From: Cytophagales bacterium
GTDB taxonomy: Bacteria > Bacteroidota > Bacteroidia > Cytophagales > Spirosomataceae
Direction of reading: 5' to 3'
NCBI GenBank assembly: GCA_028868395.1
Contig: JAGWUO010000018.1
Location: 1 to 10,167 of the forward strand
DNA: 10,167 nucleotides
Shown here: positions 5,401-9,277 of the stretch, piece after piece
Layout: each line of letters opens with the position of its first letter
Position numbering within the stretch: position 1 is the stretch's first letter
Made by a program: the position numbers and the translations under genes
The notes under the pieces: generated by a model
The model's input: only the letters and a program-made list of their open reading frames with translations
Told to the model about the DNA's origin: nothing
The model's database searches: none

Positions 5401-6678
5401 ATGAAAAACAACGTAATTCATCGTACGGATGAGGAACAAGAAACCGCGGTCTTAGTCGCAGTTACTTCTCAAAAACAAAATGCCGAACAAACGGCCGAAT
5501 ACCTCGCGGAATTAGCTTTTTTAGCTTCTACCTCGGGCGTGGTCACGCTTCATAGTTTTACCCAAAACTTAGCGAAGCCAGATAATAAGACCTACGTAGG
5601 AAAAGGAAAATTTGAGGATATCATGGCCTATGTCATTGAAAAGGATGTGGATATGATCATCTTTGACGACGACTTAAGTCCTTCACAGGTCCGCAATATT
5701 GAATTTAACATTCAAGAATACGGCAAAGAAGTCAAAGTACTCGATCGCAGTTTGTTGATCTTGAATATTTTTGCCCAAAGAGCCCAAACCGTACAGGCCC
5801 GTACCCAGGTAGAACTCGCGCAATACCAGTACATGTTACCGCGACTTACCCGCATGTGGTCTCACCTTTCCAAACAACGTGGTGGCGTGGGTATGCGTGG
5901 ACCAGGTGAAAAGGAATTAGAGACGGATAGACGTATTGCAAATGACCGCATTGCCTTTTTAAAGGACAAGCTAGAAGCTATCGATAAGCAATCGTTCACC
6001 CAACGCAAGAACCGCGATCGGATGGTCCGCGTTTCCTTAGTAGGCTACACAAACGTGGGCAAGTCTACTTTGATGCAAAAACTGGCTAAAACAGACGTTT
6101 TCGCTGAAAATAAATTATTTGCCACAGTAGATTCCACCGTTCGCAAGGTGGTTTGGGAGGGCATTCCGTTCTTATTAACAGATACCGTAGGTTTCATTCG
6201 CAAACTCCCTACCCTCTTGATCGAATCCTTCAAATCGACCTTAGATGAGGTACGTGAGGCGGATGTCTTATTACACGTGGTGGATATTTCCCACCCGAAT
6301 TTTGAGGAACAAATTGAAGTCGTTCAAGGAATTCTAAACGAAATGGGTGTAGGCGACAAACCGACCATCTTAGTCTTCAACAAAATCGACCTCTTCCCTG
6401 TCGAAGATATTTTCTTTGAGGGAACCGAAGTAGGTTTGGATGGAGAACCAGAATTAAGTAAAATGGACCGAGTAACGGCCTTTTTAAAACGTACACATTG
6501 GAAAACTAATACCCCTAAAACGGTTTTCATTTCTGCCGAACAACGCAGTAACCTGGCTGAATTACGCGAGACGATCATGGGTATGTTGAAAGATAAGCAT
6601 ATGCAGATTTTCCCGAATTGGCTGGAAGGCAACCACTTGATGGGGCATAGTGATGGGTATAATCCAGAGGGAGAGTAG
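5401..6678 (+). CDS. hflX: Ribosome-associated GTPase HflX
   Basis: Translational GTPase that binds the 50S subunit and splits stalled or stress-arrested ribosomes. At 425 residues it matches the bacterial family. The N-terminal HflX domain contains YVGKGKFEDI near residues 65-74. The middle helical region holds the RGGVGMRGPGEKELETDRR signature (about 160-178). The G domain has G1 GYTNVGKST (215-223), G3 DTVGF (261-265), G4 NKID (327-330) and G5 SAE (378-380). The ATG at 5401 fits the family N-terminus, and the next Met is far inside the domain. No Shine-Dalgarno sequence is present and no TAnnTTTG box is seen between the atpG end and the start, so its transcription may depend on read-through of the terminator or on a non-canonical promoter. 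The stop codon lies inside a 7-base repeat leading to the tRNA gene. Confidence 0.97.
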   Translation: MKNNVIHRTDEEQETAVLVAVTSQKQNAEQTAEYLAELAFLASTSGVVTLHSFTQNLAKPDNKTYVGKGKFEDIMAYVIEKDVDMIIFDDDLSPSQVRNIEFNIQEYGKEVKVLDRSLLILNIFAQRAQTVQARTQVELAQYQYMLPRLTRMWSHLSKQRGGVGMRGPGEKELETDRRIANDRIAFLKDKLEAIDKQSFTQRKNRDRMVRVSLVGYTNVGKSTLMQKLAKTDVFAENKLFATVDSTVRKVVWEGIPFLLTDTVGFIRKLPTLLIESFKSTLDEVREADVLLHVVDISHPNFEEQIEVVQGILNEMGVGDKPTILVFNKIDLFPVEDIFFEGTEVGLDGEPELSKMDRVTAFLKRTHWKTNTPKTVFISAEQRSNLAELRETIMGMLKDKHMQIFPNWLEGNHLMGHSDGYNPEGE

Positions 6679-6713
6679 AGATTATAGATTATAGAGTAGA
6701 GATTATAGATATT
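6673..6713 (+). repeat. Heptanucleotide repeat between hflX and tRNA-Arg
   Basis: The 41 bases read as consecutive 7-mers: GAGTAGA, GATTATA, GATTATA, GAGTAGA, GATTATA, then partial GATATT. The first unit contains the hflX stop codon (6676-6678), and the last runs up to the first base of the tRNA. No terminator is visible, so hflX and the tRNA may share a transcript. Confidence 0.85.
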
Positions 6714-6785
6714 GGCGCTGTAGTTCAACGGATAGAATAGGCGTTTCCTAAACGCTAGATCCGGGTTCGATTCCCGGCGGGGCCA
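6714..6785 (+). tRNA. tRNA-Arg(CCU), reads AGG codons
   Basis: A 72-base cloverleaf. The D stem GTTC (6723-6726) pairs with GAAT (6735-6738). The anticodon stem is GGCGT/ACGCT (6740-6744 with 6752-6756), with loop TTCCTAA and anticodon CCT at 6747-6749. A 4-base variable loop follows. The T stem CCGGG/CCCGG (6761-6765 with 6773-6777) carries loop TTCGATT. The acceptor 5' strand GGCGCTG faces CGGGGCC, discriminator A at 6785, and no CCA is encoded. One oddity is that acceptor position 4 is G opposite G69, a mismatch in an otherwise paired stem; C would be expected there. The D, anticodon and T arms are intact, so it is probably functional. The gene is followed directly by tandem repeats derived from its own 3' half. 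Confidence 0.93.
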
Positions 6786-6786
6786 C

Positions 6787-7190
6787 CCAGAGGGAAGCAG
6801 AAGAGCGCACCTTCTAAACGCTAGAGACGGCCGGGGTCGCGTTCGACTCGATTCCCGGCGGGGCCACCCAGAGGGAAACAGAAGAGCGCACCTTCTAAAC
6901 GCTAGAGACGGCCGGGGTCGCGCTCGACTCGATTCCCGCCGGGGCCACCCAGAGGGAAGCAGAAGAGCGCACCTTCTAAACGCTAGAGACGGCCGGGGTC
7001 GCGCTCGACTCGATTCCCGGCGGGGCCACCCAGAGGGAAGAAGAGAGCGCACCTTCTAAACGCTAGATGAAGCCGGGGTCGCGCTCGACTCGATTCCCGG
7101 CGGGGCCACCCAGAGGGAAACAGAAGAGCGCACCTTCTAAACGCTAGAGACGGCCGGGGTCGCGCTCGACTCGATTCCCGGCGGGGCCAC
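6787..7190 (+). repeat. Tandem array of five 81-bp units derived from tRNA-Arg
   Basis: Five head-to-tail units at 6787-6867, 6868-6948, 6949-7029, 7030-7109 (80 bp) and 7110-7190 differ by only a few bases. By my count the unit is about 67% GC, far above its surroundings. Each begins CCAGAGGGA, then has an anticodon-arm-like part (AGCG, CTAAACGCTAGA) and a T-arm-like part with about 11 extra bases. Each ends in the tRNA's last bases: TCGATTCCCGGCGGGGCCAC is shared exactly with the tRNA except in unit 2, where CCCGCC replaces CCCGGC. The extra bases can form an inner stem GTCG/CGAC inside the T stem GCCGGG/CCCGGC (in unit 1, 6830-6859). No unit has a complete acceptor 5' strand, so none is a normal tRNA. 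Unit 4 carries a one-base deletion and a changed patch (TGAA for GACG). It is not a CRISPR array, because there are no variable spacers. Confidence 0.95.
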
Positions 7191-7193
7191 ATG

Positions 7194-7302
7194 ACGTGAA
7201 GCGTCAGTCCGGAGGGAATGAGTCCGGAGGACGAACATTTTACGAGGTCATCCCCGCAGGGGATTCCAACTTTGTGCTTTTTGCTTTGCTCTTTGTTATT
7301 TG
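7194..7302 (+). repeat. Hairpin/heptad module, copy A (82 bp plus a 27-bp insert)
   Basis: The order of parts is as follows. First is hairpin ACGT-GAA-GCGT (7194-7204, with a T-G closing pair, extendable by G7193-C7205). Next is a 27-bp insert (7207-7233) holding one decayed and one perfect GTCC-GGA-GGAC hairpin. AACATTTTACGAG follows, then hairpin ATCCCC-GCA-GGGGAT (7250-7264). The module ends with five 7-mers of the form nnCTTTG (7268-7302). Without the insert it aligns base for base with copy B, which starts 4 bases after it ends. The GC-rich hairpin followed by T-rich heptads could also stop transcription from the tRNA side, but the T tract is weak. Confidence 0.85.
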
Positions 7303-7305
7303 AAA

Positions 7306-7387
7306 ACGCGCAGCGTCAAACATTTCACGAGTTCATCCCCGAAGGGGAATCCAACTTTATTCTTTGTACTTTATGCTCTATGCTTTA
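7306..7387 (+). repeat. Hairpin/heptad module, copy B (82 bp)
   Basis: Hairpin ACGC-GCA-GCGT (7306-7316) is followed by AACATTTCACGAG, hairpin TCCCC-GAA-GGGGA (7336-7348), and five 7-mers of the form nnCTTTR (7353-7387). The 40-base central block (7319-7358) matches copy A (7234-7273) at 36 of 40 positions without gaps. Hairpin sequences differ between copies but keep stem pairing and a three-base G-N-A loop. Positions 7388-7451, up to the next gene, hold nothing else I can support. Confidence 0.85.
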
Positions 7388-7451: not shown

Positions 7452-8582
7452 TTGAATCAACCTTACACCCATCAACTATACACACGCGTCAGTGATTTGC
7501 CTGAAAACTGGGATCAGGTGTCAGAATCATGCATTTTCCTGCAAAGCAATTATTTGGGAGTTTTGGAAAATGCTGCACCCGAAAATATGCAAAATACCTT
7601 TGTAGGGGTTTTTGAAGGGAAAAAATTAATTGCAACCGCATTGTTCCAAGAGATTGATTTAGCGCAATTAAACAGCTTTGGAGAAAGGGATCACTTTATA
7701 GTAACTCAGGTCAGAAATTTTCTTTTTCGACGATTCGCCTCGAAGTTATTAATTGTTGGTAATAATCTATTAAGTGGTCAAAACGCCTACGCCTGTCTAC
7801 CTGAATCAGATGAAAAAAAGGTGGTGGAGAAACTAAAGGAACTTTGCCTTATTTGGCCAAATAAACCCCATTTAACCATTTTCAAGGACTTCACTTTAGA
7901 CCAAACAAAACCTTTTCAAATACCCGCCTTTACTTCCGATTATCCATTTAGCTCACAGCCCAATATGGTTTTTGAGATAAAAGAAAGTTGGAAAACGGAG
8001 GCTGATTATGTGGCAAATTTGACCAAAAAATACCGTGATCAATTGAAGCGATGTCGCAAAAAAGGCAGCGGTATCTGGACGAAGGAATTGACTTTAGACG
8101 AAATAGTTGAGAACGAAGAAATCATCTATTCTTTGTATCTACACGTTGCAAAGAACGCTCCATTTAATACGTTTATTCTACCTGAAACACATTTTTCTGT
8201 TTTCAAAAAACAACTAGGCGAAGCGTTTATTCTGCGTGCTTATTATGAAAACGATCAACTGGTAGGCTTTACTACCGTTATTCGGCATGGAAATGAATTA
8301 GAGACGTATTTTTTAGGCTATGATGATACAATTCAGCGAGAGAAAATGCTTTACCTGAATATGCTTTACGATTTTATCCAATACGGGATTCTACAAGGTT
8401 TCAACCGTATTATTTTAGGGAGAACGGCATTAGAAATAAAGAGTTCTATAGGTGCTATTCCTGTACAACTGAATGGATTTATGCGTCATTCGTATGCCTT
8501 AGTTCACCAAAATCTAAGCTGGATATTTCCCTTCTTAGAGCCTAAATCGAATTGGATTCAACGCCATCCCTTTAAGGATTAA
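7452..8582 (+). CDS. FemAB/GNAT-like acyltransferase of unknown substrate
   Basis: A 376-residue protein with no signal peptide, so probably cytoplasmic. The C-terminal half (about 180-345) resembles the FemAB/BioF2-type GNAT fold. It has the basic YRDQLKRCRKKG segment (194-205), which resembles the region where Fem-like proteins pass between GNAT domains, a strand-rich core (AFILRAYYENDQLVGFTTVI, 258-277), YFLGYD (286-291) and a late helix (MLYLNMLYDFIQYGI). Such proteins transfer acyl or aminoacyl groups, often in cell-wall or lipid modification. The substrate cannot be told here. An in-frame stop at 7428 and no upstream ATG point to TTG at 7452 as the start; the first internal ATG (residue 46) would remove part of the N-terminal domain. 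No promoter motif was found. Its stop overlaps that of the convergent AgaI-like gene. Confidence 0.8.
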   Translation: MNQPYTHQLYTRVSDLPENWDQVSESCIFLQSNYLGVLENAAPENMQNTFVGVFEGKKLIATALFQEIDLAQLNSFGERDHFIVTQVRNFLFRRFASKLLIVGNNLLSGQNAYACLPESDEKKVVEKLKELCLIWPNKPHLTIFKDFTLDQTKPFQIPAFTSDYPFSSQPNMVFEIKESWKTEADYVANLTKKYRDQLKRCRKKGSGIWTKELTLDEIVENEEIIYSLYLHVAKNAPFNTFILPETHFSVFKKQLGEAFILRAYYENDQLVGFTTVIRHGNELETYFLGYDDTIQREKMLYLNMLYDFIQYGILQGFNRIILGRTALEIKSSIGAIPVQLNGFMRHSYALVHQNLSWIFPFLEPKSNWIQRHPFKD

Positions 8583-9277
8583 ATAGCTGAATTATCAATT
8601 AAACATTCCACATTAGGGTGCATCCATAAAAAAGAGGCAGGACAATCGGTTCCAATTTTTCGCTCCATAATCCGCTTTACAGCGTCTTGTTTTCCCTTTC
8701 CAGTAATCAGGAAAATGATTTTTCTTGATTGCATAATACCCTCCATTCCCACGCAAAGCCCATAAGCTGGTTCATTTCCAGTTGATAAAGCTGGATCATG
8801 TGCAATGGTAGATTCTGCTAAAGTAGCTTTGTGAAAATCTGGATTTAACGTTTCCGCAGGTTCATTAAAAGCAATATGTCCGTTTTTTCCTAGCCCCAAA
8901 ATACAGATATCTAAAGGACCATTCTCTTGAATAAATTTACCTATACGTTTGCATTCTGATTCAACAACTTCAGGAGCTGTGTCAAAGGAGGTATATCGGT
9001 TGTTTGAAATTTCCAAAGGGCCTAATAAATGCTTTTTCAAATAGGTTTCACATGAATCCGGATGGCTCAGAGGGATAATTCCCCATTCATCCATTTTAAT
9101 TACCTGCATTTGAGAATAAAGTACTTTTTCTTTCGCCATTTCAGCATACATCCCCGTAGGACTTCCTCCGGTAGCTGCACAAAACAACAAGTTAGGATTT
9201 TGCTTGACTTCTGACGCAATCAATTGTGCCGCTTTTTCACTTAATGCAGCATAATTTTCAAGATAAGTAATTTTCAT
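8579..9277 (-). CDS. Amino-sugar-6-phosphate isomerase/deaminase, AgaI-like (NagB superfamily)
   Basis: Likely converts galactosamine-6-phosphate (or glucosamine-6-phosphate) to a keto-sugar phosphate with release of ammonia. The start is taken at the ATG at 9275-9277 (232 residues), since MKITYLENYAALSEKA matches the family N-terminus; an upstream in-frame ATG at 9322 adds 15 unlikely residues. Motifs are ATGGSPTG (35-42, phosphate-binding loop), MDEWG (62-66, with Asp63 equivalent to NagB Asp72), SCETYLKKHL (75-84), LGLGKNGHIAFNEP (127-140) and ASFLWMH (214-220). Asn132 replaces the NagB Asp141, while His134 and Glu139 are kept. From memory, E. coli AgaI has the same GKNGH and ASFLW features, so AgaI fits better than NagB. 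No other amino-sugar gene is visible in the window to settle the substrate. Confidence 0.85.
   Translation of the reverse strand: MKITYLENYAALSEKAAQLIASEVKQNPNLLFCAATGGSPTGMYAEMAKEKVLYSQMQVIKMDEWGIIPLSHPDSCETYLKKHLLGPLEISNNRYTSFDTAPEVVESECKRIGKFIQENGPLDICILGLGKNGHIAFNEPAETLNPDFHKATLAESTIAHDPALSTGNEPAYGLCVGMEGIMQSRKIIFLITGKGKQDAVKRIMERKIGTDCPASFLWMHPNVECLIDNSAI

Follow-up and report, generated by a model that had tools for sequence, protein, structure and literature searches.

We describe a tandem array behind a tRNA-Arg(CCT) gene in which every unit is a partial copy of that tRNA split in its T-arm by a 17-nt hairpin insert. The same insert is nearly universal in sampled partial copies of this tRNA, occurs in copies of other tRNA genes and of 5S rRNA, and varies through compensatory changes in its stem. 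We put at about one in two the probability that it is a REP-like DNA hairpin element residing in redundant copies of structural-RNA genes, here tandemly amplified and homogenised with the tRNA. The literature searched yielded no description of the hairpin-tagged feature.

According to this reading, the array would have begun with a redundant partial copy of tRNA-Arg(CCU) whose T-arm received a short hairpin element (foot YCGGR, 4-bp stem, loop CGNN) and which was thereby inactivated; tandem amplification of this tagged copy would have followed. The element would work as a DNA hairpin, in the manner assumed for REP-type elements, entering at loops of RNA-gene sequence, while slippage or unequal exchange would expand the array and keep its tails identical to the tRNA. 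Because an insert in a working gene would destroy that gene, inserts would be kept in redundant copies only. If this is true, a structure-conserved hairpin of 17 nt marks nearly every sampled broken copy of certain tRNA genes, plus 5S copies, in many genomes of one family. It would then be a mobile or regulatory DNA element of very small size, associated with RNA-gene loops, and would document in nature the disabling and amplification of tRNA gene duplicates. Searches can use the foot-hairpin as a specific signature, and the responsible protein could be sought in Aquirufa hosts that are in culture.

Anatomy of the locus

The window, by which we mean the whole stretch of 10,167 nucleotides analysed, contains one tRNA gene, a tRNA-Arg with anticodon CCT located by ARAGORN at 6713-6789 and by Rfam (RF00005, 58.2 bits) at 6714-6785; neither program calls any unit of the array as a tRNA. 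An earlier note on this DNA had described five tandem copies derived from the 3′ half of the tRNA and lying directly 3′ of it. The five-copy array is confirmed by the tRNA calls, by Tandem Repeats Finder (6767-7190, period 81, 95% matches, score 783) and by alignment of the units, and its features are as follows.

5401..6678, + strand: hflX-like GTPase gene (Pfam GTP-bdg_N, GTP-bdg_M, MMR_HSR1), ending 35 bp upstream of the tRNA
6714..6785, + strand: intact tRNA-Arg(CCT) gene (ARAGORN, Rfam)
6787..6867, + strand: unit 1, 81 bp; spacer, 3′ part of the anticodon stem, hairpin insert and tRNA tail; loop CGTT
6868..6948, + strand: unit 2, 81 bp; tail CCCGC in place of CCCGG
6949..7029, + strand: unit 3, 81 bp
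7030..7109, + strand: unit 4, 80 bp; the most diverged of the five
7110..7190, + strand: unit 5, 81 bp
6831..6847, + strand: insert of unit 1, CCGGG + GTCG-CGTT-CGAC
6912..6928, + strand: insert of unit 2, CCGGG + GTCG-CGCT-CGAC
6993..7009, + strand: foot-hairpin insert of unit 3
7073..7089, + strand: foot-hairpin insert of unit 4
7154..7170, + strand: foot-hairpin insert of unit 5
6848-6867, 6929-6948, 7010-7029, 7090-7109 and 7171-7190, + strand: tRNA tail copies of units 1-5, from the T-loop to the 3′ end plus one C
6803..6814, + strand: candidate decayed antisense anticodon-loop insert, GAGCGCACCTTC, proposed from the full-length copies in loci L121 and L330

Unit 1 consists of a 28 bp spacer, TAAACGCTAGAGACGG, the 17-nt insert CCGGG-GTCG-CGTT-CGAC and TCGATTCCCGGCGGGGCCAC, where TAAACGCTAGAGACGG corresponds to the 3′ side of the anticodon stem, the variable region and an altered T-stem, and TCGATTCCCGGCGGGGCCAC to the tRNA from T-loop to 3′ end with one additional C. 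The units do derive from the 3′ part of their own tRNA, as had been proposed, but they are not plain halves: each carries in its T-arm a 17-nt hairpin insert, with foot CCGGG, a 4-bp stem and loop CGNN, that had been missed. Even with up to three mismatches allowed, the window contains the insert at these five sites only; its loop ends in CT in units 2 to 5 where unit 1 has TT. The tRNA segment reported as shared by every unit (CTAAACGCTAGA) is found in all five, and units 1, 3, 4 and 5 end with the last bases of the tRNA, unit 2 being the exception already recognized. The depiction of GC-rich, nearly identical units in AT-rich surroundings was equally accurate, with 64-67% GC in the units and 65% over the array against 41% in the window, and 75-80 identical bases in each pair of units.

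Both flanks of the tRNA and array carry further repeats. The gap between hflX and the tRNA (6671-6710) holds AGATTAT/GAGTA microrepeats, with related repeats in relatives, and the region 3′ of the array (7191-7370) holds GACG/CGTC palindromes and TCATCCCC...GGGGATTCC blocks, which relatives also have.

Relatives and homogenisation of unit tails

Comparison of hflX, for which 80 of 503 loci were kept, places the host near Aquirufa (Spirosomaceae), its close relatives being Aquirufa and Cytophagaceae MAGs. The search of relatives suggested in the earlier note does recover units behind tRNA-Arg(CCT), with 1 to 4 units per locus against five in the window, and a pattern search identified units in 20 of the 30 genomes reached through these loci. 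Spacers are, by eye, wholly different between clades. The feature is present in the isolate genomes of A. antheringensis, A. aurantiipilula and A. rosea and is therefore not a MAG artefact; the draft contigs of L001, L009 and L011 stop inside the tRNA or the array.

Unit tails follow the tRNA-Arg of their own locus, in agreement with the maintained identity that had been suggested. Among 47 unit rows, at least three of which repeat a unit (L009/L178 and L023/L092 hold the same units), 36 tails are exact over 19 nt and 43 match at 18 or more positions, the tRNA of the same locus being the uniquely best match in 39. The other eight tails are either decayed (L014, L015 and one unit each of L115 and L179) or differ by single changes (window unit 2, L090, L111 and one unit of L113). 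The CCCGC of window unit 2 is the state of the tRNA itself in L004, L006 and L028, from which we infer ongoing exchange.

The insert, excluding its two free loop letters, is almost constant over 50 unit rows, although some positions were fixed by the pattern used for collection and the foot in L036 reads TCGGA. At 4-fold sites of hflX, the window differs from 11 relatives by 0.28-0.73, with values of 0.67-0.73 in seven of them.

Association of the insert with broken RNA-gene copies

The hflX loci were fetched regardless of the insert, and 53 of them have a forward tRNA-Arg(CCT). Tail copies of the tRNA, 22 in total, are present in 16 of these 53 loci and absent from 37. A perfect 4-bp hairpin with loop CGNN lies just 5′ of the T-loop in 19 of the 22 copies; the hairpin is mismatched in L008 and L015 and lost in L032. 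Applied over the fetched loci, a tail test gives a perfect stem in 46 of 62 copies, 45 of them with loop CGNN. A foot-plus-stem scan of the fetched loci holding a tRNA returned 76 sense T-arm inserts, with stems GTCG (47), GGCG (11), CGGC (9), GTTG (6) and TTCG, GCCG and GTGG (one each), counts that convey variety and not frequency because the loci were mostly fetched through the insert. The foot is YCGGR in most aligned copies; a few have ACGGT or TTGGA. It is common for an insert to take the place of 1-3 bases, and no clear target duplication was seen.

The expectation that the array always follows tRNA-Arg(CCU) does not hold. Units also lie behind tRNA-Arg(CCG), and tagged copies adjoin tRNA-Met (L215), tRNA-Ser, tRNA-Gly and, with a mismatched stem, tRNA-Thr (L271, L284), as well as tRNA-Pro and tRNA-Arg(ACG); the foot-loop format is found with perfect stems at eight tRNA species. 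Nor is a position after the tRNA fixed, copies lying upstream of the gene in L036, L123 and L125. More distant family members have longer copies of the tRNA, nearly full length in L336 and in L121, where copies of tRNA-Arg(CCT) combine a sense T-arm insert with an antisense anticodon-loop insert. Partial 5S rRNA copies with the insert adjoin an intact 5S gene at six loci, and a search for a source copy in the rRNA pieces of these loci produced no further match.

Stem covariation and distribution

An alignment of 41 copies (A1), partly gathered by eye, has 98.8% of its cells paired and changes on both sides at all four pairs. The covariance model built from it (R1) matches 60 of 222 family genomes at E<=0.001, leaving 162 without a match. 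Among 395 phylum genomes, a draw in which the number of other family members is unlisted, and under the stricter filters that large searches use, the only strong match is the seed genome G001, itself in the family. Phylum-wide spread is rejected: three further matches in the 395 genomes (E 0.003-0.008) are at about chance level and coding-like by eye. Within the genomes sampled, the feature is limited to one family.

Twenty of the 60 R1-positive genomes were picked by hand, mostly ones not seen before. A tRNA gene lies within the fetched 2-2.5 kb in 19 of them (16 Arg-CCT and one each of Pro-CGG, Met and Arg-ACG), and in the twentieth the first tagged copy is preceded, at a distance of about 1.6 kb, by an intact tRNA-Arg(CCT). 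Over 32 distinct R1 matches (A2), all 128 cells are paired and 34 are changed on both sides, and the covariation score is 0.784 against 0.161 in shuffled alignments, none of 500 shuffles scoring as high; two of the five measures applied to these shuffles were reached, by 48 and 6 of the 500. A1 having been gathered partly by eye and R1 carrying the structure, A2 leans towards that structure. The five window units all have stem GTCG and therefore show no compensation themselves.

An order-wide pattern at up to three mismatches occurs in 21 of 390 genomes, several of these with RHS or other coding contexts; a looser T-loop pattern (41 of 222 genomes) is noisy, its reversed control also matching, and for a 14-letter pattern (12 genomes) the reversed control gave no match.

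These results bear on a neutral account, in which a local duplication that received a chance insertion was inherited and homogenised, with no mobile or functional hairpin. Turnover of this kind is visible in the unit numbers of Aquirufa-like relatives (1 to 4, against 5) and in the different tail of unit 2. The format nonetheless persists while hflX 4-fold sites are near saturation, and it recurs at the eight tRNA species and in 5S copies with stems that are varied and compensated, which makes neutrality a distinctly improbable explanation.

Integrative elements at the same tRNA genes

Direct repeats of a tRNA 3′ end downstream of the gene are typical of the attachment sites of integrative elements, and such elements seem to use these tRNA genes. 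At the tRNA-Arg(CCG) locus L111 (252-2600), the tRNA is followed by arm-like TGTG[CT]AGCA repeats, a 590-aa ORF, further arm-like repeats and a unit. At L113 (14772-19600), also tRNA-Arg(CCG), cargo including a von Willebrand-like 343-aa ORF (by eye) and arms precede an att-like tRNA half without insert, after which come two units; L112 has the same order at a CCT-type half, its att-like end likewise without insert. Units in L104 contain arm-like repeats.

The units might accordingly be read as leftover ends of integrative elements using tRNA-Arg, with arrays formed by repeated integration and cargo loss. Repeated attachment sites had been among the roles suggested in the earlier note, and it finds partial support, in that tRNA-Arg(CCG) units adjoin arm-like repeats and cargo and that the 20-bp tail repeats resemble tRNA att cores. 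Against it, a conserved insert splits the repeat here, and since the att-like ends beside the arms in L112 and L113 are free of it, with the units lying beyond, it cannot be equated simply with the terminus of an integrated element. By eye, TGTG[CT]AGCA repeats are absent from the window array, and no integrase was seen in the ORF lists read, those of L111 and L113 among them. Copies that lie upstream of the gene (L036, L123), are nearly full length (L121, L336) or derive from 5S rRNA also fit poorly. A phage or plasmid origin was rejected, no such record matching the array and the exact pattern having zero occurrences in viral contigs. We consider an origin as attachment-site relics unlikely.

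DNA or RNA hairpin

In E. coli, tandem repeats behind a tRNA gene at tyrT carry the tRNA 3′ end and are associated with rtT RNA. The window array resembles that locus in its tandem repeats behind a tRNA carrying its 3′ end, and it differs in having a T-arm hairpin insert in each unit, in affecting several tRNAs and 5S rRNA, and in the terminator-like sites that separate copies in some relatives. An array transcribed with the tRNA, serving as an rtT-like structured RNA or as a decoy for tRNA-processing enzymes, had been put forward previously. It is compatible with the window, where a + strand scan detected no terminator-like site between tRNA and array, and compensatory stem changes suit RNA hairpins as well as DNA ones. 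In L121, by contrast, the tRNA and each of the copies have a terminator-like site behind them, and L104 has one separating the tRNA from the first unit. The proposal of repeated T-arm-like hairpins is, in that form, weak: the folds of single units are not clearly better than those of shuffled sequences (z -0.68 to -1.04). In the predicted fold of units 2-5, the segment of the type found at 6803-6814 pairs with the T-arm insert.

Orientation weighs further against an RNA. The scan identified 76 inserts in T-arms that run in the sense of the tRNA, and 11 in anticodon loops that are antisense to it. Seven further sense matches are of other kinds; judged by eye, they comprise junctions, tandem hairpins and a T-arm variant, and no anticodon loop contains one. 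Of the remaining antisense matches, one lies in a tRNA-His copy and two lie in T-arms of L084, where the tRNA is inverted. A DNA hairpin is favoured because the insert takes opposite orientations in the two loops, a difference that would make an RNA read differently and leave a DNA hairpin the same. Pairing in cis between anticodon-loop and T-arm inserts was entertained and rejected: it is near perfect in L121 and not kept in L330, where the three copies with an anticodon-loop insert bear a different stem in their T-arm insert. Because stems differ within a copy, the L330 inserts are not kept for mutual pairing. Altogether, the structured RNA or decoy has little support and appears improbable.

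The tRNA-Arg(CCT) of L084 is inverted relative to its own array, as if the two had been parted by an inversion. A tRNA-His copy in L182 (1527-2128) has an anticodon loop with 43 exact 14-mers (GACCCGGTCTACGC) beside a hairpin insert.

Comparison with REP and other palindromic elements

PMC3733652 describes REP repeats as palindromes of 20-40 bp in which one end bears an unpaired tag, GTAG or CGTC. The preferred reading of a REP-like DNA hairpin draws on the likeness to REP/REPIN sequences in the short hairpin, tagged at one of its ends by unpaired bases, and in the compensatory changes. In a REPIN, two inverted repeats form a larger hairpin; a possible counterpart is the pairing of an antisense anticodon-loop insert with a sense T-arm insert in the copies of L121 and L330, although the stems differ in the latter. 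The differences are several: the tag is YCGGR and not GTAG or CGTC; the insert, 17 nt with a 12-nt hairpin, falls below the 20-40 bp given there; in place of high copy numbers we count 1 to 8 exact matches per genome, with 33 of 222 family genomes positive, and at most 16 for a shorter pattern in a genome searched (G275); and the hairpin resides in partial copies of tRNA and 5S genes, with no link to RAYT found. Since the tests of tag, size, copy number and RAYT failed, the element is not filed as a REP.

A RAYT/Y1 transposase was rejected as the mover. PF01797 is present in all of 60 genomes, of which 30 have an R1 match and 30 do not, and absent from G001 and G020, both of which have units. 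In REPIN/RAYT systems the repeat flanks the RAYT gene; here, twenty RAYT loci contain one footless GTCG-CGGC-CGAC stem (L232), with about one expected by chance.

Rickettsia palindromic elements are short palindromic inserts within genes. The insert described here is likewise found inside genes, including RHS-core genes, but it is much shorter at 17 nt, reading frames change at it, and it occurs mainly in loops of RNA-gene copies.

A bolder and quite unlikely proposal is that Spirosomaceae recognise redundant copies of structural-RNA genes (and repeat-rich RHS genes) and inactivate them in a repeat-triggered manner by placing a micro-hairpin, defined by its structure, in their loops, much as repeat-induced silencing does in spirit, but in bacteria; a variant of this proposal is that an extremely small mobile element targets RNA-gene loops.

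Other contexts and minor observations

Outside copies of RNA genes, the exact 17-mer occurs in RHS genes, in a palindromic repeat and in some coding sequence. RHS-core genes of L122, L131, L135 and L206 hold the same 17-mer, with TIGR03696 in four of six pieces scanned and a toxin-domain match just above the cut-off in one, and overlapping open frames meet at an insert in L122, L131 and L135. Exact short matches in G499, G240 and G468 resemble, by eye, ordinary coding sequence. Genome G481 (L192, L201, L218) has the hairpin at the centre of a repeated palindrome, CCCCTTTAGG...TTTAGGGG.

L321 has a further foot-hairpin, TCGGA + GTCG-CGCA-CGAC, at the junction of T-stem and acceptor strand. A second type of module, CCGNNGTCGCGYAGACCG, was found in 7 of 222 family genomes and is partly coding by eye. 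Repeats of the 15-mer CCGCAGTCGCGCAGA type lie near signal-peptide-like ORF ends in L239 and L242 and translate, by eye, as AVAQT repeats. Finally, a tRNA copy in L341 holds an element (7730-9165) with a 328-aa ORF that is transposase-like by eye and with the short repeat TAGAATACG at both ends.
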